A DNA stretch of 35,156 nt from Candidatus Cloacimonadota bacterium. GTDB lineage: Bacteria; Cloacimonadota; Cloacimonadia; Cloacimonadales; Cloacimonadaceae. The notes beneath the pieces are model-generated. The model worked only from the letters and a program-made list of their open reading frames with translations. It did not search any database and had not been told where the DNA came from. Positions 1 through 29,922 of this stretch are shown in pieces. The stretch covers positions 1-35,156 of the forward strand of contig JAQVIX010000018.1 of NCBI GenBank assembly GCA_028695495.1, in the 5' to 3' direction. Made by a program: the position numbers and the translations under genes. Position 1 is the first letter of the stretch. Every line of letters begins with the position of its first letter.

Positions 1-572
1 GAGTTATTTTGATTTCCTCTATTCTTATAAGCTTTGTGTTCAATCCCTACAATATCCTGCAATATTCTTGCCACAGTGCATGATTTCCCTGATCCTGTAG
101 AGCCTACAATTGCTAAATGCTTGCTAAACAGATAATCTCCATTTACCATAAGGCTCACTTCTTTATTTACAGACAATTTCCCCATGGGGAAATCATACAT
201 TTCAGATGAAATAAATATTGAATCAATATCTTCTTGTGATGGTTTATATACAAGTTCAGTCGGCAATGGCAACAAAACGCTTCCTCGTTTAAATCTATAC
301 TTGCTTTCCAACTCCTCAATCAATGTGCCAATCGGCTGACACTCAATTATAAATTGCAGATTTTGAGGATCATCCGCGTTAAGTATTGCGCTTTTTACAT
401 TCCTTATTACTGCGAGTGTATAGTCACAGTTTCCCGTTGCAATTTTTAAGTATTTACCTATCTGAAGGAAATCTTTGGAGCCTTCAAACGTTTTCACATC
501 TTCAATTTCCACAATTATTGATTGTGGTGAACAAGACAAAACTGAACCAATTCTTTCTTCACTATCTTTCAT
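1..572 (-). CDS. HerA-type ATPase (DUF87/HAS-barrel), 3' end beyond window
   Basis: This is the N-terminal 190 residues of a HerA/FtsK-clade P-loop ATPase; the rest lies beyond base 1. The first ~140 residues are beta-rich and fit a HAS-barrel-like domain (SIFISSEMYDFPMGKLSV precedes the ATPase core). A clear Walker A, GSTGSGKS, occupies residues 157-164, after the hydrophobic strand HLAIV. The ATG at 572 is preceded by AGGAGT at good spacing. The gene overlaps the stop codon of the upstream nuclease-like gene by 11 bases, so the two are probably co-translated. HerA proteins are hexameric DNA translocases; with a partner nuclease they form HerA-NurA or the antiphage DUF4297-HerA and SIR2-HerA pairs. 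The coupling to a DUF4297-like protein points to the defence role. Walker B and the arginine finger are out of view. The region is visibly AT-rich compared with genes further right. Confidence 0.85.
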   Translation of the reverse strand, partial: MKDSEERIGSVLSCSPQSIIVEIEDVKTFEGSKDFLQIGKYLKIATGNCDYTLAVIRNVKSAILNADDPQNLQFIIECQPIGTLIEELESKYRFKRGSVLLPLPTELVYKPSQEDIDSIFISSEMYDFPMGKLSVNKEVSLMVNGDYLFSKHLAIVGSTGSGKSCTVARILQDIVGIEHKAYKNRGNQNN

Positions 573-1779
573 TGTTTACTCCTAAAACATAATTTAACTC
601 TTTAAACGATACGCCATCCAGCAAAAAAACAGATGCATCTAATTTTTTGATATTAAAACAATCTTTCCCAACTATATAAATATCATCAGGTGTTTTATCC
701 TCAAAGCAGTCTTTGTTAAATCCCCAGTTCATTATTCTGATGTCAAATTCGACTTTTCTGTCACTTTTCTTGCCAATAATCAGCGGATCTCTGAAAAGAT
801 CGTCCTTACTAAAATACCTTCCAGTATATCCATCAGCCATTTTAATGCCTGCTTTTCTGAGTCGCTCTTGTATTGTGTAAAACGTATCCATATCTGTTCT
901 TATGCAAAAAAGAGGGGTTTTCTTATGGAGCGGTTTGTGATGATATTTGTATATATAACCTTTAATGAATTTAATCACATTCTGCTCAAAATCTTCGTAG
1001 CCATCAGAATTGATTAAAAACCATCTTTCCCTTACATTAAAACTAAGATTTGTTTTTAACTGTTTGTTTAATGTATCTAAGAGTTTTTTCCTTGATATCA
1101 ACTCTTGTGTCCATCGCGTTAGCAACACTGCTTTCATATTCTTAAGTTTATCCAGTAGCATCGTTTTGGTTATAGTTCTTTCTTTTGTTATATGTTTTGT
1201 GCTTAGTGAGGCGATTAACTGAATAGAATTGGGATAGAATAAATCTTTCGCATCACTTTTTATAACTCCATTATTTTCAAACGAAGAAATGATTTGCATT
1301 TCTAATTGATCAAATGATGGACCATATTCAATCCTAAATTTTGACAAAAAGCCATTAAGATCAAAACAATCAGGAATGTCATTAATGAGATTTTTTAAAG
1401 ACTTATCCTGAGAATTAAGTATTGTTTTCACGTCATTTTCAGTTATGAACAACGTAGCAGATTTATAACCAGGGTCATGGATGAATAGAATGTATTCTAT
1501 TGTTTTATCATTGTGTTCTTGATAATGTTTCATCATTTGTAATAAAGGACTGTATATGCCGCTAAGTGTTACTTTTCTGGCAGATTCATGGTATTTACAC
1601 TGAATAGCGGTAATTCTATCATTTGTGGTAACATCAATATCTTCGATTATGCCCTCGATAGTTATAGTGGTACCATCATTAGAATTTAACACTACTAATA
1701 ACGTTTTAAGAAACTGATATAAGAATCCCTTAATCGAATAACTGGCTGTTCTAATCTTGGGTTGTCTGAGATTATTCAT
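562..1779 (-). CDS. DUF4297/Cap4-like PD-(D/E)xK nuclease-domain protein
   Basis: A 405-residue protein. Its N-terminus resembles the dsDNA-nuclease domain of DUF4297/Cap4-type defence effectors: SIKGFLYQFLKTLL (residues 15-28, the conserved GF.YQ helix), then E46-D47-I-D49, then IQCKYHE with Q60 and K62. That spacing fits a PD-(D/E)xK active site of the E/D...D...QxK kind. Residues ~190-405 resemble no domain I recognise and could be a sensor or HerA-docking region. It starts at an ATG preceded by GGAG. Its end overlaps the start of the HerA-like ATPase, and the SD of that gene lies inside this one. It begins 90 bases after the hsdM-S stop with no hairpin between them, so it could be read as part of the restriction operon. 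The likely role is DNA cleavage with HerA in an antiphage complex. The family call rests on motifs and gene context only. Confidence 0.6.
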   Translation of the reverse strand: MNNLRQPKIRTASYSIKGFLYQFLKTLLVVLNSNDGTTITIEGIIEDIDVTTNDRITAIQCKYHESARKVTLSGIYSPLLQMMKHYQEHNDKTIEYILFIHDPGYKSATLFITENDVKTILNSQDKSLKNLINDIPDCFDLNGFLSKFRIEYGPSFDQLEMQIISSFENNGVIKSDAKDLFYPNSIQLIASLSTKHITKERTITKTMLLDKLKNMKAVLLTRWTQELISRKKLLDTLNKQLKTNLSFNVRERWFLINSDGYEDFEQNVIKFIKGYIYKYHHKPLHKKTPLFCIRTDMDTFYTIQERLRKAGIKMADGYTGRYFSKDDLFRDPLIIGKKSDRKVEFDIRIMNWGFNKDCFEDKTPDDIYIVGKDCFNIKKLDASVFLLDGVSFKELNYVLGVNNER

Positions 1780-1869
1780 TCAAACCATTCTCCACGTTTT
1801 TATTATGCATAACAGGATGCTTGGAAGAAGCGTAACTATCCAAACACGTATTATTATATGTTCTTAGAA

Positions 1870-4452
1870 TTAAGTCCACATTTTCTCCATTTTGTCATTT
1901 ATCTTTTGCTTATAAGTCTTTTCTATTTCTTTTATGGTCATTATGCTATCTAATTCCTTTATCAATCCGGCTACTATCTTTTTTTGCTCGTTCATAGGGG
2001 GAAGATAAATCTTATAATCCTTAACTATTTCTTTGGGAACTCGTTTTTGACCCGCAGACCCAGTCATTAAAGGAGTTGTATGCTTATGAAAATCTACAGA
2101 TGACAGGTAAAGATAGATTATTTCGGGTAAAACTACATCCCTACACCTTAAAACATGGTATTCTGTAGATCCAAATCCCATGTTGTTTGTCAGGTTTTTG
2201 ATTATGCCGATCTTCCCATTTTCAAAGCAAGGTGTGATCTTCGCTAATAACACATCCTCATTAGTAAATTGAGTATATCCTTTTCTCTTTACATCACCTA
2301 TTGTAATCGTATTCTGTGGAGTAGCATAAATACAATTTATTTCTAAATCAGTCATTGGTAAGAAACCAACAACAGTCTCATCTTCTATCATCTCCAAGGC
2401 TTTAAACATCGGATTAAACTCTACTATGTCTCCAAGTTTCACTATCTCCCACTTTGGATCAATCTCAATCTTGGGTTTCCAGTTATCAATTACCATGCGG
2501 GCGCCATCAATGATTTTTTGGTATGAATCTAATTCTGCTACGATTTCTTCTTGGGCGGAAAGGGGTGGGAGCGGGATTTTGATTGATTCAAAACTTGTTT
2601 TTGATACCTCTTTATATGTGCCGCCAGTTCCAAGAGATTCTAATAATCTTTTCATTCCACGCATCATATATGCCAAATATCTATAATTCAAGATTTCGGG
2701 ATTCTTAACAATTAGGTTTTTGAACCCTTGGTTTGTTGCAACAGGTTTAATGTTTATAGCAACTCTTCCAATGGATGCTCTTGATGAAACAAGAACAGTG
2801 TTTACAGGTAATAGCTTAGCTGAGGATGATTTCAAGCCTTCTTTAGTAATCTGTCTTTCAGTGCTATTTATTTCACTTACATACTCTGTAGCTGGCAAAT
2901 CAACTAAAGTGACCCAATCAATTTCTCCGTTCCAGAATGATTCGTTTTTTGTGTCTGGTGTACCGCCTGACACAATCTCCGCAACCTCGCCCAAGTTCAC
3001 CATTTCAAATACAGTGCTATTTTTTCCCTTTTCCTCATACCTCCCCGCACTCAAATTATAATCCCCACTCTCCGCCAGCCTGCTCTTTTCCACCAGGCTT
3101 ATTCTCTCATCCTTGCAGGTGAAATCTTCATTTCTCTGCACCGCTTTTTTGTAGGCTTGTGCAATGGCAAAGATATCCGGCAGGTCATTTTCAGCAATCG
3201 CTTTGCGTTGGGCACCCAGGTTATAGCCATCGTTATTTACCTTGCAAAAGATGATCTTATCCGTTTTGCGAGCTATGGATTTATCCAGCCAGAGGATGGA
3301 AGTTTTTACGCCGCTATAGGGATTGAATACGCCATTGGGCAGGGAGATTACGCCTACCAAATAGTTTCCTTCCACCAAGGTTTTTCTCAGTTCTTTATAT
3401 GCCTTTCCGCTTTGGAAGATAATCCCTTCGGGCACGATCACCCCCGCTTTGCCATTTGCCGTCAGGTGCTCTAAGATATAATCCACAAAAAGCACTTCGC
3501 TGCGTTTGGATTTGATGGTAAAGCGATTATGCGGCACGATGCCACCTTTGGGCGTCATAAAGGGGGGATTTGCTAAGATTACACTTGCGTGTTCGCTCCA
3601 GCGGTCATCGCGGGTCAAGGTATCATATTCATGGATTTTGGGCGTGCTAAAGCCATGCAGATACATATTTACCAAGGAAAGGCGTACCATTTCAAAGGCG
3701 ATATCGTAGCCTACGATGTTTTGATGCAGATATTCCCGCTGGTTGGGGTTCATTTTTTCGCCGCGGTAGTTTTTACCATTGATTACCAGTTCATCCAAAT
3801 CCTTGCCACTTATAGCAAAGCTATGTGGTTCTTTTTGGGGATTATAGTTTGCGCTATTGTTTTTGAGGATGTGTTTATAGGCAGAGATCAAAAAGCCAGC
3901 GGTGCCGCAGGCGGGGTCCAGGATGCTATCATCCTTTTGGGGGTCCACAAGCGCTACGATAAAATCTATAATATGGCGGGGGGTGCGAAATTGCCCGGCA
4001 TCCCCCTGCGAACCTAAGATTGCCAATAGATACTCAAAGGCATCTCCCAATTTTTCGCTATGGTCGTAAGTAAACTCATTGATTGCCGAGAGGAAGAGCC
4101 GCAGGGTGGCGGGATCGCGATAGGGCAAAAAGGCGTTTTTGAAGATATCGCGAAAGAGGGTGGGGATTTCGGTATTGGTGGGAATTTTGCCAAGTGCTTC
4201 CTGATAAAGAATCACGCGCCCTTCGCCGCTTAGCTCTGGCGCAAAGAGTTTGTTCCAGGCATATTTGGCATATTCTCCGGTAAAATACTGGGGATTCCCG
4301 CCCATTTCCACGCTTTCGCTATCCATGTCGTACATGAATTTATAGATGAGCGCCACGGTGATTTGCTCCACCTGCGAGCTGGGCACGGGCACCTTGCCCA
4401 CCAGGATGTCGCGGGCATCATCTATTTTCTTTTTGGTTTCTTTATCTAACAC
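1870..4452 (-). CDS. Type I restriction-modification HsdM-HsdS fusion
   Basis: A single 860-residue chain joins a type I N6-adenine methyltransferase to a two-TRD specificity subunit. Residues ~1-470 are HsdM: helical N-terminal domain, SAM motif I DPACGTAGF at 179-187, and catalytic NPPF at 295-298. Residues ~483-640 form the first target-recognition half, ending in the typical IKIPLPPLSAQEEIV and a helical spacer (DSYQKIIDGARMVIDNW). Residues ~668-850 form the second half, with YKIYLPPMNEQKKIV and another helix. HsdM alone is usually ~500 residues and HsdS ~400, so this is a full-length fusion. The start is GTG (rc of 4450-4452) with AAGGA upstream, 10 bases after hsdR. It methylates a bipartite target and gives specificity to the HsdR complex. 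The TRD-coding parts are AT-rich compared with the M part and the central conserved spacer. Confidence 0.92.
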   Translation of the reverse strand: MLDKETKKKIDDARDILVGKVPVPSSQVEQITVALIYKFMYDMDSESVEMGGNPQYFTGEYAKYAWNKLFAPELSGEGRVILYQEALGKIPTNTEIPTLFRDIFKNAFLPYRDPATLRLFLSAINEFTYDHSEKLGDAFEYLLAILGSQGDAGQFRTPRHIIDFIVALVDPQKDDSILDPACGTAGFLISAYKHILKNNSANYNPQKEPHSFAISGKDLDELVINGKNYRGEKMNPNQREYLHQNIVGYDIAFEMVRLSLVNMYLHGFSTPKIHEYDTLTRDDRWSEHASVILANPPFMTPKGGIVPHNRFTIKSKRSEVLFVDYILEHLTANGKAGVIVPEGIIFQSGKAYKELRKTLVEGNYLVGVISLPNGVFNPYSGVKTSILWLDKSIARKTDKIIFCKVNNDGYNLGAQRKAIAENDLPDIFAIAQAYKKAVQRNEDFTCKDERISLVEKSRLAESGDYNLSAGRYEEKGKNSTVFEMVNLGEVAEIVSGGTPDTKNESFWNGEIDWVTLVDLPATEYVSEINSTERQITKEGLKSSSAKLLPVNTVLVSSRASIGRVAINIKPVATNQGFKNLIVKNPEILNYRYLAYMMRGMKRLLESLGTGGTYKEVSKTSFESIKIPLPPLSAQEEIVAELDSYQKIIDGARMVIDNWKPKIEIDPKWEIVKLGDIVEFNPMFKALEMIEDETVVGFLPMTDLEINCIYATPQNTITIGDVKRKGYTQFTNEDVLLAKITPCFENGKIGIIKNLTNNMGFGSTEYHVLRCRDVVLPEIIYLYLSSVDFHKHTTPLMTGSAGQKRVPKEIVKDYKIYLPPMNEQKKIVAGLIKELDSIMTIKEIEKTYKQKINDKMEKMWT

Positions 4453-4462
4453 AGGTATTTCC

Positions 4463-6985
4463 TTATCTGTAAGTATTTATATTTACATAGTCTTTGATGT
4501 ATTCGGGGATGCTTTCCCGCCAATCTGCTGCCACTGCGCGGAGGTCTTGCATGCCAAATTTGGGATAGGTGTTTAGCTTGGCGTAGCTTTTGTCGTCTAT
4601 GATATTTTGCAAATCCTTATCTGTAATATAGGCTTTGAAATAGTATTTTAGCGCAGGGATATTGTCGTTTCCGGTGGGGCGCATAATGGTGATGAACTTC
4701 TTGAATTCCCCTTCCAAAAGCTCTTCTTTGCTTTTGAAGCCGGGGATGAAGCCAAAGATTTTTTCCACAATTTCCCTAAGGCTCACGCGCCGATCCAAGG
4801 GGATGGCTTTGCGGAGTTTATCCAGTGTAAAATAATCTTCGGGGCGATTGATGAGAGTGCCATTGATATAATCTTCCACAAAATCCCAATTGCCTTCCTG
4901 AACGCCTTTTTGGATGATGCGGTCGTTTTTCACCTGCTCTTCAAATCTTTGAAACAGCATTCTATCCACGCGCATACCGTTTTCGGGTATTTGCCTTTGC
5001 TCCATTGTTTTTAAGGGGTCTGGAGTATATATTTCGGCGCCGTCTATTTTCACTTCCTGTGGGCGGTCGGCTGCGCTGGATTCGCCGGAAGGCTCTGCCG
5101 GCAGCGTCAGCACCCGGTCGTAATCGTATTTCTCTTCAAAGTATTCGCACACGGCAAAGAAATCGAAAATCATGTAATGCTCTTTTACTTTGTCCAGATG
5201 CCGGGCTTTGAGGGCAGGGTCTATGATCTCCTGGCTAAAATTGTGGCGACGGGTGCCTCTACCTTTGATCTGCACAAATTCCGAAGGGGAAAAGATGGGA
5301 CGCATCAGGCAGATATTTAAGAGGTCTGTACAATCGTAGCCGGTGGTCATCATGCCTACGGTTACGCATACGCGGGTTTTGGAGCTACGGTAATCTTCTA
5401 TAAAGTTTCCACGTCCGGAAAGATTGTTATTGGAAAAATTGATGGTCATTTGCTGGGCATCCGGCACTAATGAGGTCACCTGAATGGCAAAATCCGAATT
5501 GTATTTATCCGGATACATTTCATCTGCCATTTTGTTCAGGATTTGGGTGATTTTGGCGGCGTGTTTTTGGCTAACGGCAAAGATGATGCTTTTGCCTATT
5601 TCGCTGCTAATGGGGTCTCGCAAGGCGTTTTCCAAAAAGACCTTGCAAATGGTGATATTGGTGCGATGCGAAAAGAAGCGTTTTTCATAATCCCGTTCGC
5701 GAAAATATACTGTGTCAAAATCGTGTTCCTGATCTTTTACAATATATTCAAAGCCTTCATCCGAAAGCAGCTTTGTGGATACATCCGTACGGGCATCTAC
5801 TACAATGGGATTTACCAGATAGCCATCCCTTACGCCATCTACCAGGGAATAGCGGAAAGTAGGTTCCCCGCTTTTACAGCCAAAGGTTTCGTAAGTATCC
5901 ATCAGTAATCTGCGTTCTATATCGCGGGGGCTGTGCGCTTCGGGGTCTCTATTTTTCAAATAATCTTTGGGCGTGGCGGTAAGCCCCAGCTTGTAGCCCA
6001 CAAAATATTCAAATACGGCGCGTGCATTTCCGCCAATGCTGCGATGCGCTTCGTCTGAGATCACCAAATCAAAATCTGTGGGGCTAAACAGCTCTTTATA
6101 TTTATCTGCGATGATCAGGCTTTGCACAGTGGAGATCAGGATTTGAGCTTTGTGCCAGTCAGTCCGATTATCTTTGTAAATCATGGCTGTATAATCGTTG
6201 CTCAGATACTTTACCATGTTTTTATAGGCTTGATTTTCCAGCTCTAAGCGGTCCACCAAAAATAGCACGCGGTGGGCATTGCCGGTTCTGAGAAATAGCT
6301 TGATAATTGCCGCCGAAACTAAGGTCTTGCCGGTGCCGGTTGCCATCTCAAACAAAAAGCGGTTTTGCTTTTTTCTTACCGCGTTTTGGATGGATTCTAC
6401 AGCTTGCACCTGATAATTTCTCAAAAGGCTGAGGCCGTATTTTTTAAGATAATCGTCTCTAAGCAGGGGGTCATGAAAATCCGGATCAAGGTCGTAATCG
6501 CTTCTTTGACTGCTGGCGATATAGCCGGAACAGATTATCTCATTGACCAAAGCCTGGGGATTGGGCTGGTAATTTACATAACTCTCCATGGACAAAGGGC
6601 TGGGAAAGCTGGTAATAATGTAGGGGTTGCCCTGCAAGGTATCCCAAAAATAATGTAAATTGCCGTTGGAGAGGATGATAAAGCGACAATTTTGGGCTTT
6701 GGCATAAGTGCGGGCTTGTTCTTTGCCAAAGAGGGGGTCGTGTTTTTCGCTTTTGGCTTCCAATACAATGAGGGGGTGAGAACGCTCATCAATAAGTAAA
6801 AAATCTATAAAACCACTCTTGGTCTTTTCAAAATCGTTGCCATACTCGTTTATCTGAGTTTGGCTTAGCTTGATGTGGTTTTCCAATACAATATTGGCTT
6901 TGAGGGCGCCTTCATCAAAGAATCTCCATCCGGCTTCTTTGAGTAGCTCGTTTATCTTGATGCGGGCATTTGCTTCTTTTTGCAT
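4463..6985 (-). CDS. hsdR: Type I restriction endonuclease subunit R
   Basis: An 840-residue ATP-dependent translocase/endonuclease subunit. The N-terminal nuclease domain has D61 (GFIDFLLI) and the E77-A-K79 motif in LIVLEAKSEKHD. The SF2 motor follows: RNYQVQAVESIQ (Q-motif region, ~189-200), Walker A ATGTGKT at 215-221, DEAH at 311-314, GLTATP at 334-339, and a second RecA-like lobe with GYDCTDLLNICLMRP and QIKGRGTR. The C-terminal ~200 residues fit an EcoEI-type R C-domain. The ATG at 6985 has GAGG about 9 bases upstream. It is the first gene of the block, and hsdM-S follows after 10 bases. It cuts unmethylated DNA after translocation when assembled with the fused M-S subunit. All key motifs are present, so it looks active. 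Confidence 0.93.
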   Translation of the reverse strand: MQKEANARIKINELLKEAGWRFFDEGALKANIVLENHIKLSQTQINEYGNDFEKTKSGFIDFLLIDERSHPLIVLEAKSEKHDPLFGKEQARTYAKAQNCRFIILSNGNLHYFWDTLQGNPYIITSFPSPLSMESYVNYQPNPQALVNEIICSGYIASSQRSDYDLDPDFHDPLLRDDYLKKYGLSLLRNYQVQAVESIQNAVRKKQNRFLFEMATGTGKTLVSAAIIKLFLRTGNAHRVLFLVDRLELENQAYKNMVKYLSNDYTAMIYKDNRTDWHKAQILISTVQSLIIADKYKELFSPTDFDLVISDEAHRSIGGNARAVFEYFVGYKLGLTATPKDYLKNRDPEAHSPRDIERRLLMDTYETFGCKSGEPTFRYSLVDGVRDGYLVNPIVVDARTDVSTKLLSDEGFEYIVKDQEHDFDTVYFRERDYEKRFFSHRTNITICKVFLENALRDPISSEIGKSIIFAVSQKHAAKITQILNKMADEMYPDKYNSDFAIQVTSLVPDAQQMTINFSNNNLSGRGNFIEDYRSSKTRVCVTVGMMTTGYDCTDLLNICLMRPIFSPSEFVQIKGRGTRRHNFSQEIIDPALKARHLDKVKEHYMIFDFFAVCEYFEEKYDYDRVLTLPAEPSGESSAADRPQEVKIDGAEIYTPDPLKTMEQRQIPENGMRVDRMLFQRFEEQVKNDRIIQKGVQEGNWDFVEDYINGTLINRPEDYFTLDKLRKAIPLDRRVSLREIVEKIFGFIPGFKSKEELLEGEFKKFITIMRPTGNDNIPALKYYFKAYITDKDLQNIIDDKSYAKLNTYPKFGMQDLRAVAADWRESIPEYIKDYVNINTYR

Positions 6986-7197
6986 AATAATACCTCGGCT
7001 TTTTAGTGAGCGGGTGTTTTATAGGGTTATTGCGCTACAAAACGCCAGTTCAATAAGGTTATCATCTTCGCTCCAAAGTTTATTTATTTGTTTGAATGCA
7101 AAGGTGTTGCGCTGGGTTCAAAGTGTGTAAGGCACGCCATTTTGCATCTGGAACCAGCTTTGAAATTTGCTTTTTAATCGTCAAGGATTATTTTTGG
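6986..7197. other. 5' region of hsdR, no gene seen
   Basis: This AT-rich stretch must carry the hsdR promoter on the minus strand. A TATAAA lies near 7018-7024, but I could not pair it with a convincing -35 at normal spacing. No ORF with an SD and no RNA gene was recognised. Confidence 0.4.
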
Positions 7198-7277
7198 CTC
7201 ACTTTAAAACTTGGCGGGTAGCCATCGAATATATTGGATGCGATTATTTCTCGAAATGATGGCATCCTACCAGTCTT
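7198..7277 (+). repeat. Dispersed repeat R1, copy 1
   Basis: An ~80 bp stretch (core GGGTAGCCATCGAATATATT, then GATGCGATTATTTC and GAAATGATGGCATCCTA) recurs nearly unchanged at 11917-11998 in the same orientation. Both copies are the left end of a larger repeat field. This copy runs directly into the MITE-like element. It is non-coding as far as I can see. Confidence 0.85.
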
Positions 7278-7520
7278 GAGACTGTCCATAAATGCCAAAA
7301 CCAAACACGATATCTAACGAAACGGGAGTGTAGGGGCGCAAGGTTTTGCGCCCGCTTTTAACAAAGCGTGCGCGCAGCGCACACCGTAATAAATTGATAC
7401 ATAATCCGTAATGCTTACCTGTTGTGGGAATATTTCGGCGGGTTCAAGGCATTGAACCCCTACATATCAGGTGTGGATATTTCTTGTTGTTGTGTTATTT
7501 GCGTATTACTGGACATCCTC
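7278..7520 (+). mobile_element. MITE-like element, copy A (243 bp)
   Basis: Begins GAGACTGTCC and ends GGACATCCTC, degenerate versions of the GAGGCTGTCC/GGACAGCCTC terminal inverted repeats of copies C and D. Inside are nested inverted repeats: GTGTAGGGG against CCCCTACAT, a GGGCGCAA/TTGCGCCC hairpin, a GTGCGC/GCGCAC palindrome and GGGTTCAA/TTGAACCC. There is no ORF of transposase size, so it would need a transposase in trans. No target duplication was evident at the edges. Confidence 0.75.
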
Positions 7521-7530
7521 TTAGCGGTTC

Positions 7531-7756
7531 AGGTAGCCTAGGGTGATCGTGCCCCAATTTTCGCAAACTCATATTGGGGCACTAAGGTCTGGGCTAGCTA
7601 AACCATTGTCCCTAACGGGACAAGACCTTTACACAGCTTGAATATGAAGCCATCTTAGGCTTCATTTTTTTCCGTATTGGCTCATTGTCTTTTTTCTTTA
7701 CCCACTAGATTTGAAAGAGAGCCTTATTTTTGGCTTCGCTGCGCTCAGCAAATGAA
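7531..7756 (+). repeat. Long direct repeat (P1 stem-loop plus R3), copy 1
   Basis: Bases 7541-7756 match 12231-12446 nearly base for base over 216 bp. The left part is a P1 stem-loop: GTGCCCCAAT pairs perfectly with ATTGGGGCAC around the loop TCGCAAACTCAT. Then come a small TGTCCC/GGGACA palindrome and a hairpin followed by seven T. The left edge AGGTAGCCTAGGGTG looks like the reverse complement of the usual right edge of P1, as if two inverted copies had recombined. Confidence 0.85.
7645..7671 (+). terminator. Terminator-like hairpin inside repeat R3, copy 1
   Basis: TGAAGCC pairs with GGCTTCA across a 6-base loop and is followed by seven T on the plus strand. It has the shape of an intrinsic terminator but follows no plus-strand gene here; it is carried by the repeat. 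Confidence 0.5.
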
Positions 7757-7860
7757 TGGTGAACAATGAATGATGAATGATGAATGGTGAATGATGAACA
7801 ATGAATGATGAATGATGAATGGTGAATGATGAACAATGAATGATGAATGATGAATGATGA
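7754..7860 (+). repeat. Tandem ATGAATG/ATGATGA array
   Basis: About 105 bp of irregular 7-base units (AATGAATG, ATGATGA, with GGTGA and ACA variants), with a higher-order period of ~40 bp in which AATGGTGAATGATGAACAAT recurs. A shorter version follows the same R3 repeat at 12440-12471. The regular phase leaves frames open on both strands, which creates false ORFs. Confidence 0.85.
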
Positions 7861-7921
7861 AGGTATTGCTCGCAGGCTCGCAATGGTTTATTAGAAGCTG
7901 GCGCATGGTGCGTGGAGCTTG
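7861..7921 (+). repeat. Dispersed repeat R4 (CGCAGGCTCGCAATGG), copy 1
   Basis: GGTATTGCTCGCAGGCTCGC followed by AATGGTTTATTAGAAG occurs here and at 11880-11916 and 12472-12532. In two of the three copies it is the right end of the repeat field. It is non-coding. Confidence 0.75.
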
Positions 7922-9981: not shown

Positions 9982-10214
9982 TAGGATTTTATTTAGTATA
10001 TCTCCAATACATTATATGCAAAATCTGTGCCCAAGGCAAATGATTTTTTGATTTTGCGCAGGATAAGGGGTTTGGAGATGGGCGCTGCTTTATGGGCTTT
10101 GAACCAGAGATAAAGGGCAGCAGAGGCGTAATGGCAATTTCAAATGAGAATATTTTCCCAAAATATATTTTTGCAAAGCGTAGCGGAAATTTCAGGAGCT
10201 TTGCTCCTTTCTCG
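9982..10214. other. Intergenic, no gene recognised
   Basis: Upstream region of the minus-strand surface protein; its promoter should lie here, but no clear -35/-10 pair was seen. The short open frame through it on the minus strand reads across the neighbouring palindrome and has no SD, so it is not called. Confidence 0.4.
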
Positions 10215-10275
10215 CCCTCGCAATGCCCTCGCCTCGACCGGTAATTTGTGGGTCGAGGTGAGGGCATTGTGAGGG
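10215..10275 (+). repeat. Palindromic repeat P4, copy 1 (61 bp)
   Basis: CCCTCGCAATGCCCTCGCCT continuing to CGACC pairs with GGTCGAGGTGAGGGCATTGT continuing to GAGGG, around a short AT-rich loop. The same 61 bp unit occurs in inverted orientation at 28500-28560. GGAGGCAAAC flanks the same end of both copies, so the repeat unit is a little longer than the stem. Confidence 0.85.
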
Positions 10276-10283
10276 AGGCAAAC

Positions 10284-11879: not shown

Positions 11880-11916
11880 GGTATTGCTCGCAGGCTCGCA
11901 ATGGTTTATTAGAAGG
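11880..11916 (+). repeat. Dispersed repeat R4, copy 2
   Basis: GGTATTGCTCGCAGGCTCGC and AATGGTTTATTAGAAGG, as at 7861 and 12472. Here it sits to the left of R1 instead of at the right end of the field, so this field is bracketed by R4 on both sides. Confidence 0.75.
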
Positions 11917-11998
11917 CTCACTATCAAACTTGGTGGGTAGCCATCGAATATATTGGATGCGATTATTTCCCGAAATGATGGCATCCTATCTGTCTTGT
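11917..11998 (+). repeat. Dispersed repeat R1, copy 2
   Basis: Near-identical to 7198-7277 with a few substitutions (GGTGGGTAG for GGCGGGTAG). Here it leads into the large palindrome, where copy 1 leads into a MITE. Confidence 0.85.
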
Positions 11999-12310
11999 CC
12001 CGTCAGGGACAGTGGTTTAGCTAGCCCAGGGTGTGCTTGTCAAAAACGAGCTTGCGAGTTTTAGGCAAGATCACCCTGGGTAAAGAAACGCGTTTAAAAA
12101 AGAAAAAAAACCCCCAGCCCCCCCCTTGTAATTTACGGCACAAAACCCGGGGGTTTTGTGCGGTAAATTACAAGGGGGGGGGGGCTGGGGGATAAAAAAG
12201 ATTTCATCAAAACATACCTGTCACCCAGGGTGATCGTGCCCCAATTTTCGCAAGCTCATATTGGGACACTAACACCCTGGGCTAGCTAAACCACTGTCCC
12301 TGACGGGACA
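11999..12310. repeat. Nested ~310 bp inverted repeat (P1 - P2 - P1)
   Basis: The outer arms are GTCCCGTCAGGGACAGTGGT (left) and ACCACTGTCCCTGACGGGAC (right), reverse complements of each other. Moving inward they carry GGTTTAGCTAGCCCAGGGTG against CACCCTGGGCTAGCTAAACC, i.e. an inverted P1 stem-loop (12016-12081) facing a forward one (12222-12290). The ~80 bp hairpin P2 sits at the centre. The unequal distances on the two sides (about 30 bp of A-rich sequence at left) make it imperfect between P1 and P2. Confidence 0.85.
12111..12191. repeat. Long hairpin palindrome P2, copy 1
   Basis: CCCCCAG, eight C, then TTGTAATTTACGGCACAAAA and CCC on the left pair with GGGTTTTGTGCGGTAAATTA, CAA, eleven G and CTGGGGG on the right. 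There is one mismatch, a slightly unequal G/C run and almost no loop. GGATAAAA follows the right arm, as in the copy at 28820-28886. Confidence 0.9.
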
Positions 12311-12446
12311 AGACCTTTACACAGCTTGAATTTGAAGCCATCTTAGGCTTCATTTTTTTCCGTATTGGTTCATTGTCTTTTTTCTTTACCCACTATATTT
12401 GAAAGAGAGCCTTATTTTTGGCTTCGCTGCGCTCAGCAAATGAATG
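12222..12446 (+). repeat. Long direct repeat (P1 plus R3), copy 2
   Basis: Bases 12231-12446 repeat 7541-7756 at identical length. The P1 part has an outer stem CCCAGGGTG/CACCCTGGG, an inner stem GTGCCCCAAT/ATTGGGACAC with one mismatch, and the loop TCGCAAGCTCAT. R3 with its hairpin and T run follows, then a short ATGATGA array. Confidence 0.88.
12333..12359 (+). terminator. Terminator-like hairpin inside repeat R3, copy 2
   Basis: Same TGAAGCC/GGCTTCA stem plus seven T as at 7645. It lies ~500 bases after the dGTPase stop on the same strand and could end a read-through transcript, although the P2 palindrome lies in between. Confidence 0.45.
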
Positions 12447-12471
12447 ATGAATGATGAATGATGAATAATGA

Positions 12472-12532
12472 AGGTATTGCTCGCAGGCTCGCAATGGTTT
12501 ATTAGAAGCTGTCGCATGATGTGTGGAATTTG
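12472..12532 (+). repeat. Dispersed repeat R4, copy 3
   Basis: Matches 7861-7921 through CGCAGGCTCGCAATGGTTTA and on into AGAAGCTGTCGCATGATGTG. It follows the short ATGATGA array, in the same order as at the 7.8 kb locus. Confidence 0.75.
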
Positions 12533-12628: not shown

Positions 12629-12865
12629 GAGGCTGTCCCAAAATGCCAAAACCAAGCACTATATATACCGAAACGAGAATGTAGGGGCGCAATGCTTTGC
12701 GCCCGCTTTTTACAAAGCGTGCGCACACCGTAATAAATTGATATTGAATCCGTAATGATTACCTGTTGCGGGTATATTTCGGCGGGTTTGGGTGCCTTGA
12801 ACCCCTACATTTCAGGGGTGGACATTTCTTGATGTGGTGTTGTTTGCGTATTTCTGGACAGCCTC
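12629..12865 (+). mobile_element. MITE-like element, copy B (237 bp)
   Basis: Perfect 10 bp terminal inverted repeats, GAGGCTGTCC and GGACAGCCTC. The interior matches the other copies (AATGTAGGGGCGCAA, CGGCGGGTT, TTGAACCCCTACATTTCAGG) with a few small deletions. There is no coding capacity for a transposase. Confidence 0.85.
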
Positions 12866-28305: not shown

Positions 28306-28499
28306 GTAGTCGTGTTTTGAGTTATGGGTTATCTGTAAGTGAAAATAAACCACCGCTAATATACGCGAATTGAAGCGAATTATCGCGAATGCCACTACTA
28401 CGAGCGCAGCTATAATCAACCTGCGCTTGCGCAGCCGCCATTATTCATTTTTCATTATTCATTAGCTGAGCGCAGCGAAGCAAGCTTGCTCGTTTGCCT

Positions 28500-28560
28500 C
28501 CCTCACAATGCCCTCACCTCTACCCAGAATTTGCCGGTCGAGGTGAGGGCATTGCGAGGG
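28500..28560 (-). repeat. Palindromic repeat P4, copy 2 (inverted)
   Basis: A 61 bp stem-loop: CCCTCACAATGCCCTCACCT then CTACC, pairing with GGTCGAGGTGAGGGCATTGC then GAGGG. One arm has TACC where full pairing would need GACC. Flanked by GTTTGCC, as copy 1 is on the opposite side. Confidence 0.85.
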
Positions 28561-28810
28561 CAGCAATAGAGTAAGAGTGTCTCATACTGAAATTGGTTGA
28601 CCAATAATTGAGCCAAATGAGATGATTTATACTAGGCAAACGATTAAAAAATATGTCGTGTATAAATAATCTTATAAGCTCAAAGCTTTTCCAGGTTCAA
28701 AAGCTCATAAAAGATGGAAGTTTAAACAGGGAATATCATGCATGGCTGCCGAGCGGAACCCCGTTAGGGGTGATATTTTAGATAGCAATCGCGTTATATA
28801 GCAATATGAT
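28561..28810. other. Intergenic, no gene recognised
   Basis: AT-rich sequence without an SD-led frame. The only structure noted is a small ACCCCGTTAGGGGT stem near 28756-28769. A 70-residue minus-strand open frame runs through the adjoining palindrome and is not credible. Confidence 0.4.
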
Positions 28811-28819
28811 AAATAAACC

Positions 28820-28886
28820 CCAGCCCTATGCCCTTTGATGGCAGAAAACTCATGAGGTTTTCTGCCATCAAAGGGCATAGGGCTGG
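28820..28886. repeat. Long hairpin palindrome P2, copy 2 (30 bp perfect arms)
   Basis: CCAGCCCTATGCCCTTTGAT then GGCAGAAAAC pairs without mismatch with GTTTTCTGCCATCAAAGGGC then ATAGGGCTGG, around the 7-base loop TCATGAG. The ends (CCAGCCC/GGGCTGG then GGATAAAA) match copy 1 at 12111, while the middle of each arm differs. Confidence 0.93.
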
Positions 28887-28918: not shown

Positions 28919-28987
28919 TACCCAGGGTTTATCTTGCCCAAATATCGCAAGCTCATTTTTGGGCAAGAACACCCTAGGCTACCCAAA
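28919..28987 (+). repeat. P1 stem-loop, copy beside MITE C
   Basis: Outer stem CCCAGGGT/ACCCTAGG, inner stem CTTGCCCAAA/TTTGGGCAAG (perfect), loop with TCGCAAGCTCAT. It starts 33 bases after P2 copy 2 and ends 5 bases before the MITE. Confidence 0.88.
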
Positions 28988-28992
28988 CTATA

Positions 28993-29236
28993 GAGGCTGT
29001 CCCGAAATGCCAAAACATGCACGATATCTAACGAAACGAGAATGTAGGGGCTTGAGGGCTTTGCGCCCGCTTTTAATAAAACGTGCGCGCAGCGCACACC
29101 ATTATAAATTGAAACACAATCCGTAATGATTACCGGTTGCGTGCTAATTTCGGCGGGTTCAAGGCCTTGAACCCCTACATTTCAGGTGTGGACATTTCTT
29201 GTTGTTATATTGTTTTTCGTATTACTGGACAGCCTC
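28993..29236 (+). mobile_element. MITE-like element, copy C (244 bp)
   Basis: Perfect GAGGCTGTCC/GGACAGCCTC ends. Nearly identical to copy D (I see only a few substitutions, e.g. CTAACG/CCAACG and AAGGCC/AATGCC), so the two are recent relative to A and B. Internal TGTAGGGG/CCCCTACA pairing is retained. Confidence 0.9.
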
Positions 29237-29605: not shown

Positions 29606-29849
29606 GAGGCTGTCCCGAAATGCCAAAACATGCACGATATCCAACGAAACGAGAATGTAGGGGCTTGAGGGCTTTGCGCCCGCTTTTAATAAAACGTGCG
29701 CGCAGCGCACACCATTATAAATTGAAACACAATCCGTAATGATTACCGGTTGCGTGCTAATTTCGGCGGGTTCAATGCCTTGAACCCCTACATTTCAGGT
29801 GTGGACATTTCTTGTTGTTATATTGTTTTTCGTATTACTGGACAGCCTC
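29606..29849 (+). mobile_element. MITE-like element, copy D (244 bp)
   Basis: Same length, orientation and ends as copy C. It ends 5 bases before an inverted P1. No transposase frame is present. Confidence 0.9.
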
Positions 29850-29854
29850 GACAG

Positions 29855-29922
29855 TTCAGGTAGCCTAGGGTGTTCTCAGCCAAAAATGAGCTTGCGAGTT
29901 TTTGGCAAGATAAACCCTGGGT
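29855..29922 (-). repeat. P1 stem-loop, inverted copy, with P2 remnant
   Basis: Read on the minus strand: CCCAGGGT outer stem, inner TGCCAAAAA/TTTTTGGC, loop CTCGCAAGCTCA, then CACCCTAGGCTACCTGAAC into the MITE. Beyond it (29943-29970) TTTTTTATCCCCC is the trace of a P2 arm, as if the palindrome had been lost. Confidence 0.82.

Follow-up and report, generated by a model that had tools for sequence, protein, structure and literature searches.

The question raised by this stretch of 35,156 nucleotides from a Candidatus Cloacimonadota bacterium (hereafter the window, meaning all of the DNA analysed) is why a hairpin, P1, recurs along it with a stem that changes from copy to copy and goes on pairing. 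The original prediction attributed the persistence of the folded hairpin to selection or copying, as would apply to an RNA element or a single-strand DNA substrate. The five P1 copies that it named are all present in the window, and as single-stranded DNA their folds are much stronger than those of dinucleotide shuffles (z of -3.1 to -5.1; -4.6 for P1 12016-12082 and -5.1 for P1 12222-12290). The hairpin is ~55 nt long and its elements run in the order TTYAGNTAG, CCCAGGGTG, internal loop, inner stem, TGAGCTTGCGA, inner stem, internal loop and CACCCTGGGT. A small hairpin (H0) and a palindrome (P2) accompany it as follows:

7535-7602, minus strand: P1 copy with a degenerate outer stem and a TAG foot on both sides
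7603..7623, minus strand: H0 (GTCCC GTTA GGGAC) of the 7535-7602 P1 copy
~11915..12400, plus strand: host MITE A..B with ends GGCTCACTTTCAAA / TTTGAAAGAGAGCC, containing the unit H0-P1-P2-P1'-H0'
11995..12015, plus strand: H0 (GTCCC(GTCA)GGGAC) plus AGTGG, the 5' part of the module
12016-12082, plus strand: P1 copy with foot TTTAGCTAG, outer stem CCCAGGGTG/CACCCTGGG, loop GAGCTTGCGA and inner stem CTTGTC-AAAAAC/GTTTT-A-GGCAAG
12111..12191, no strand: P2, a long and nearly perfect palindrome in the middle of the dimer
12222-12290, minus strand: inverted P1 copy forming a head-to-head dimer with the 12016 copy
12291..12311, minus strand: H0' at the right end, its loop in inverted orientation, within a 50-nt terminal inverted repeat
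28820..28886, no strand: P2 of the 28920-28987 copy, with 30-nt arms that are 100% complementary
28920-28987, minus strand: P1 copy with the H0 slot occupied by an end of the GAGGCTGTCC MITE
29855-29922, plus strand: P1 copy with the H0 slot occupied by an end of the GAGGCTGTCC MITE and without P2

A covariance model (R1) built on 34 copies identified at least 85 P1 copies in the 2.72-Mb genome, and later searches found at least four more; only two of the 85 lie within a predicted ORF. The NTAG foot is present in 84 of the 85 (GTAG in 36, ATAG in 31, and CTAG in 17) and the remaining copy has CAAG. Some copies carry the foot on both sides, a "double foot" form that is already known for subclass 2.4 REPs (PMC6006769). 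The loop that had been described as constant is largely so, with the sequence TGAGCTTGCGA, except that at least two copies have TGCTAA instead. The P1 model had no match in 59 relatives, 11 congeneric genomes among them, and a GTDB-wide scan (which possibly did not include this genome itself) found the P1 sequence in no other species; P1 as such is species-restricted. Because the covariance model found nothing in the 59 relatives, we adopted a wider pattern (TAGCCCNGGGT...ACCCNGGG) for P1-like hairpins in those genomes, the reversed control of which gave no matches.

The paired substitutions first seen in the inner stem proved to be statistically supported covariation across 85–90 copies, and the variation is therefore not confined to the five in the window. 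With 86 distinct aligned copies, the inner-stem covariation score was 0.155, compared to 0.068 for shuffles and 0.026–0.055 for slid partners; both sides had changed in 98 cells, 9 of the 11 inner pairs vary on both sides, and a tree of the copies had 16 double events in which one Watson-Crick pair replaced another. These covariation and tree counts are biased toward the structure, to which the alignment had been fitted. The arm-swap test does not share this lean: after 84 of the 85 copies were split into arms without using complementarity, a copy's own inner arms scored 17.2 versus 14.7 for permuted arms (sd 0.30, 0/2000), a result that applies to the overall test alone (the within-subfamily version failed to separate subfamilies). 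Some copies, those of the GCCGCC... type, are unpaired at the bottom of the inner stem. The same tree had no Watson-Crick to Watson-Crick double events in the outer stem in this genome, where the outer stem is maintained by sequence. It had been predicted to be intact in all five window copies; it is damaged in some P1 copies genome-wide, including the one at 7531, where it is largely lost (CCCAGACC...ACCCTAGG). Between genera, the fourth outer pair is A-T in 15, G-C in 15, and another combination in 4 of 34 distinct relatives, both of its positions having been unconstrained in the search pattern used on relatives.

H0 lies upstream of 65 of the 85 P1 copies, ending ~5 nt before TTYAG, and in 15 copies its slot is taken by an end of the GAGGCTGTCC MITE. 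H0 stems also vary in matched pairs (TCCC/GGGA, CCCC/GGGG, GCCC/GGGC, GTTCC/GGAAC, and CTCC/GGAG), and the H0 at 11995..12015 has 50 copies in the genome at three or fewer mismatches. P2 follows 70 of the 85 P1 copies, starting ~28–61 nt downstream (mostly 29–41) with arms of 20–37 nt, and has 56 distinct sequences that are perfect or nearly perfect palindromes. P2 diverges widely among copies yet remains self-complementary, with pairing variation at least as strong as that of P1, and a few copies have mismatched halves drawn from two types, which suggests arm-to-arm copying in P2. There are 12 head-to-head pairs of P1, 129–342 nt apart, and the entire dimer unit at 11990-12316 folds with a z of -22.7.

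The A..B repeat that hosts this dimer is bounded by terminal inverted repeats, has a centre that is itself a hairpin, and occurs again at window 7196-7640; its A end has 33 matches in the genome. In five A..B copies (L249, L251, L255, L257, and L260) the site is empty, with only GTCTTGTCCC-GTCA-GGGACAAGAC or a close variant, whereas most other examined A copies are filled at that point, either by H0-foot-P1 and so on or by the GAGGCTGTCC MITE. We rejected a simple target-site duplication because at filled sites the H0 on the right points the opposite way to the one on the left and is often a different hairpin; an interchange of a single hairpin and an inverted doublet would look like this. Three other repeats were noted in these regions. 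A ~240-bp MITE with ends GAGGCTGTCC...GGACAGCCTC (window 7278-7521, 12629-12865, 28993-29236, and 29606-29849) repeatedly fills the H0 slot by P1 and also truncates the tnpA gene on contig C68. A second palindrome family (TTGCTCC..CCTCGCAATGCCCTCGCCTCGACC...) has two differing copies in the window (10201-10281 and 28486-28566) and another at C102:6076 (L027) just downstream of P1, in the usual place of P2. Tandem ATGAATG / ATGGTGAATG arrays adjoin P1-bearing repeats at window 7737-7876 and 12425-12487.

The original prediction had also proposed looking for a RAYT/TnpA-REP-like or other hairpin-binding gene elsewhere in the genome; a Y1/HUH gene does adjoin one P1, but it belongs to subclass 1.2 and not to the RAYT class. 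The genome has two Y1_Tnp genes, on contigs C68 and C80. The C68 gene encodes the motifs DHIH, WQ, and YIRNQVEHH, the signature of TnpA subclass 1.2 (DH[IV]H, WQ, and Y---Q--HH in proteins of ~148 aa; Quentin 2018, PMC6006769), of which the H, W, Q, and HH were invariant in our alignment of subclass 1.2 proteins. It is a truncated remnant that has lost its N-terminus to a MITE at its 5' end, it is the sole subclass 1.2 gene found in this genome, and its 3' end is ~100 bp from a P1 with H0. This gene is of the class 1 type without the Y motif (YxxxNP) of class 2 TnpA-REP (RAYT), and it scores under the NCBIfam cut-off for REP transposases; its relatives exceed the NCBIfam cut-off for transposases of the IS200/IS605 family and have profile matches to HUH transposases with solved structures, of the IS608/ISDra2 type. 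The C80 transposase was rejected as a partner for P1, as its contig has no P1 and its flanks have unrelated TGGCATCTTGCC-type repeats. That gene (L032, 1483-2055, NHVH type) sits among short repeats of its own (GGCAAGATGCCGCC / TGGCATCTTGCCACAG), with which it apparently forms a separate REP system. Elsewhere in the window, on the minus strand at 562-6985, a DUF4297-like protein (below the NCBIfam cut-off) adjoins a type I restriction-modification pair consisting of an HsdM/S fusion and an HsdR-like protein, and this region is probably a defence locus.

Subclass 1.2 genes were found in 27 of 60 genomes searched (this one included), to which we added 80 loci from GTDB (Bacteroidota, Planctomycetes, Verrucomicrobiia, Acidobacteria, Poribacteria, Marinimicrobia, and others). 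A strict H0-foot motif occurred 69 times within 600 bp of 97 such genes, compared to 0.64 for shuffled sequence and 9 across 150 kb lying farther from the genes, these occurrences being carried by only 25 of the 97 loci. At 30 of 91 loci, the inverted repeats spanning the gene exceeded the 99th percentile for mismatched pairs; a 5-bp hairpin is present in 26 of these 30 repeats, versus 4–9% of background windows. The arrangement around the gene recurs in several genera: both flanks in G004 and G036 have H0, ~10 nt, TAG, and a CCCRGGGT...ACCCYGGG hairpin equivalent to a short P1; four loci (L047, L056, L060, and L161) have the gene flanked by H0, TAG, and a CCC-hairpin; and three (L036, L037, and L034) have it flanked by H0 and TTTAGNTAG arrays. 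The tnpA1.2 gene of a Planctomycetaceae locus has GTAG proper as the foot in both flanks. Quentin et al. (2018) described subclass 1.2 as having no REP and generally no IS200-type terminal structures (PMC6006769); the published lack of REP is contradicted by these flanking hairpin modules, which are far above chance. In the open-access literature we found no link of subclass 1.2 or of Acido-Lenti-1 (see below) to REP. As a separate observation, AGTCCCATCGGGACGACAG...TTAACAACGGGTTTCAACCCGGTG repeats surround the tnpA1.2 gene of G020 (L041, flanks 1200-1350 and 1820-1860); the H0 there is of the same kind, but the second hairpin that follows it is different.

A search of the window with Rfam at gathering cut-offs had no match, and weak microRNA matches were discarded as chance similarity to long hairpins; a link to RF01687 (Acido-Lenti-1) emerged solely via the relatives. 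Read on the other strand, the module matches RF01687 in having a hairpin, CUA, a spacer, and a small hairpin: its complement reads as a CCYRGGGY...ACCCYGGG hairpin, CUA, ~9 nt, and a small GC hairpin, and the two-hairpin order with CUA after the first hairpin is also present in the P1-module alignment. RF01687 had matches in 22 of 60 relatives with up to 50 copies per genome, related modules passed its gathering cut-off (37 bits) in 15 of 60 genomes, and 14 control genomes had none. Among genomes with RF01687, 7 of 25 tnpA1.2 genes had a match within 1 kb, compared to 0.35 expected; such matches were above the cut-off beside the tnpA1.2 genes of G004, G014, G030, G035, and the Planctomycetaceae locus L161, and below it beside that of G020. 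Co-occurrence of RF01687 and tnpA1.2 over the 60 genomes was modest (p 0.026). No copy from the Cloacimonadota genome itself reached 37 bits against RF01687, the best having 23.9 bits (E-value 0.017). This best match was the P1 beside tnpA, the only one of 20 segments to span both hairpins, and it aligned over the full length of RF01687 with a 39-nt loop insertion located at P1's inner stem. P1 thus differs from RF01687 in having a long covarying inner stem in place of a 4-nt loop, and also in having a spacer of 14 rather than 12 nt; moreover, RF01687 is annotated as RNA and the module looks like DNA here. Since the copies in this genome score below the cut-off, we state that P1 shares the architecture of RF01687 and do not claim membership.

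We consider it likely that P1 forms part of a REP-like DNA module with two hairpins (H0, ~10 nt, NTAG, and P1) that belongs to HUH/Y1 TnpA subclass 1.2 and is mobilised as composite BIME/REPIN-like elements. The module, its copy number, covariation and dimers, the empty and filled sites, and the position beside tnpA genes in several genera were observed directly; we infer binding and cutting by TnpA and transposition, which could occur as follows. H0 and P1 would fold when the strand becomes single-stranded, e.g., on the lagging strand at a replication fork. TnpA would recognise the hairpins and the NTAG foot and cut and join nearby, as TnpA-REP does with GTAG REPs. The unit H0-foot-P1-P2-P1'-foot-H0' would then spread as a non-autonomous BIME/REPIN-like element, some units being carried inside an unrelated TIR-bounded MITE. 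The foot and the lower stem would be held by sequence and the upper stem would need pairing alone, so that it could drift by compensatory change or have one arm copied from the other; the cause of the compensation may accordingly be selection on the fold or such copying. The copies now in this genome may no longer move in this way, given that the single subclass 1.2 gene identified here is truncated.

What the original prediction left as two branches, an RNA element or a DNA substrate, can be weighed with these observations, and they favour the DNA branch. That P1 and Acido-Lenti-1 are functional RNAs (small RNAs, 3' UTR elements, or terminator hairpins with a fold under transcript selection) would agree with the Rfam listing of Acido-Lenti-1 as an sRNA of unknown function, with the grading of the family as "probably" RNA by its authors (Weinberg et al. 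2010, PMC2864571), and with the stem covariation, which is real. However, neither gene orientation bias nor a G.T excess gave any sign of RNA function in P1: relative to flanking tandem genes the P1 strand was the same in 18 cases and opposite in 17, and by a simple ORF caller the gene contexts were 35 tandem, 22 divergent, and 14 convergent, with no preference for gene ends and no depletion between divergent genes. Transcript selection acts on one strand and should favour G.U, but G.T was little above A.C (43 versus 31 in P1 and 13 versus 7 in P2, a weak test). In addition, matched-pair variation is no weaker in the P2 palindrome than in P1, and the head-to-head dimers, the MITE ends that replace H0 in 15 of 85 copies, and the empty and filled sites are traits of mobile DNA. 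The weak G.T/A.C result together with the dimers, MITE substitutions, and empty sites favours mobile DNA, and we regard an RNA function for P1 as quite improbable.

A mobile origin that needs no HUH enzyme is also conceivable, P1 being a passive palindrome spread only by DDE-type MITEs (A..B and GAGGCTGTCC) and kept paired by intrastrand template switching. The A..B flanks shared by many copies (33 copies of A) fit such an origin, as do the broken tnpA of this genome and P2, which is perfect yet diverse with a few half-switched arms, as arm copying predicts. However, many P1 copies lack the A flank and have H0s of other types, and the same module is found beside tnpA1.2 in further genera and in a second phylum, so we think this origin unlikely. 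Gyrase, IHF, or Pol I binds to some REPs of other bacteria, and P1 could by analogy be a site for gyrase, IHF, or another nucleoid protein in chromosome organisation, for which its high copy number in intergenic DNA would be suitable. Such a role is very improbable: none of the 11 congeneric genomes searched has P1 as such, which would be unlikely for a conserved architectural site, and the tnpA linkage would be left without explanation.

Returning to the TnpA1.2 module, we lean somewhat toward a broader reading in which Acido-Lenti-1 is not an RNA gene but a two-hairpin single-strand DNA substrate of subclass 1.2 HUH transposases. It would constitute a new kind of REP, present in several phyla, with the guide TAG between a small and a large hairpin, and to which this genome adds a covarying stem and a self-correcting palindrome. 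If true, this would provide the cognate DNA element for a transposase subclass that was described without any (PMC6006769), as well as a testable identity for an Rfam "sRNA" of unknown function that is still read as possibly regulatory; a 2026 paper reported Acido-Lenti-1 near Tannerella proteases as a possible regulator (PMC13298647). Covariation is the usual evidence for a structured RNA, and since it can come from a mobile DNA hairpin, lists of candidate RNAs should be screened for REP-like elements.

The P1 module is a variant of REP-like elements, its interest raised by the linked transposase subclass and the Rfam family. It shares several features with GTAG REPs, BIMEs, and REPINs: a (G)TAG immediately on the 5' side of a hairpin that is imperfect and bulged, a large number of intergenic copies, double-foot forms, and dimers arranged head to head. 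As in the GTAG REP/RAYT systems, an HUH Y1 gene lies beside it, and GTAG REPs are known to form head-to-head dimers and to have paired stem variants that differ between subfamilies (PMC3733652, PMC6006769). Compared with the definition of the GTAG REP super-family (Di Nocera 2013; Quentin 2018), P1 is likewise high-copy, intergenic, and self-complementary, and its dimers correspond to the inverted pairs of BIMEs and REPINs. The GT[AG]G foot of that definition is matched by GTAG in 36 of the 85 copies, compared to 84 for NTAG, and in place of a flanking class 2 TnpA-REP (RAYT) gene the P1-linked gene is class 1. Unlike in GTAG REPs, the first base of the foot is free (G/A/C), there is an extra upstream H0, and the hairpin is ~55 nt; unlike in canonical REPs, the NTAG lies between two hairpins. 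Subterminal hairpins with guide tetranucleotides are also a feature of IS200/IS605 ends (IS608 and ISDra2); unlike those elements, the hairpins here occur in many gene-less copies, and we found no complete IS bounded by a left and a right end. In E. coli, TnpA-REP reads GTAG and parts of the lower stem by sequence, the upper half being structural (PMC8266576), and P1 is divided in the same way, with a fixed foot and outer stem and an inner stem that is free but paired.
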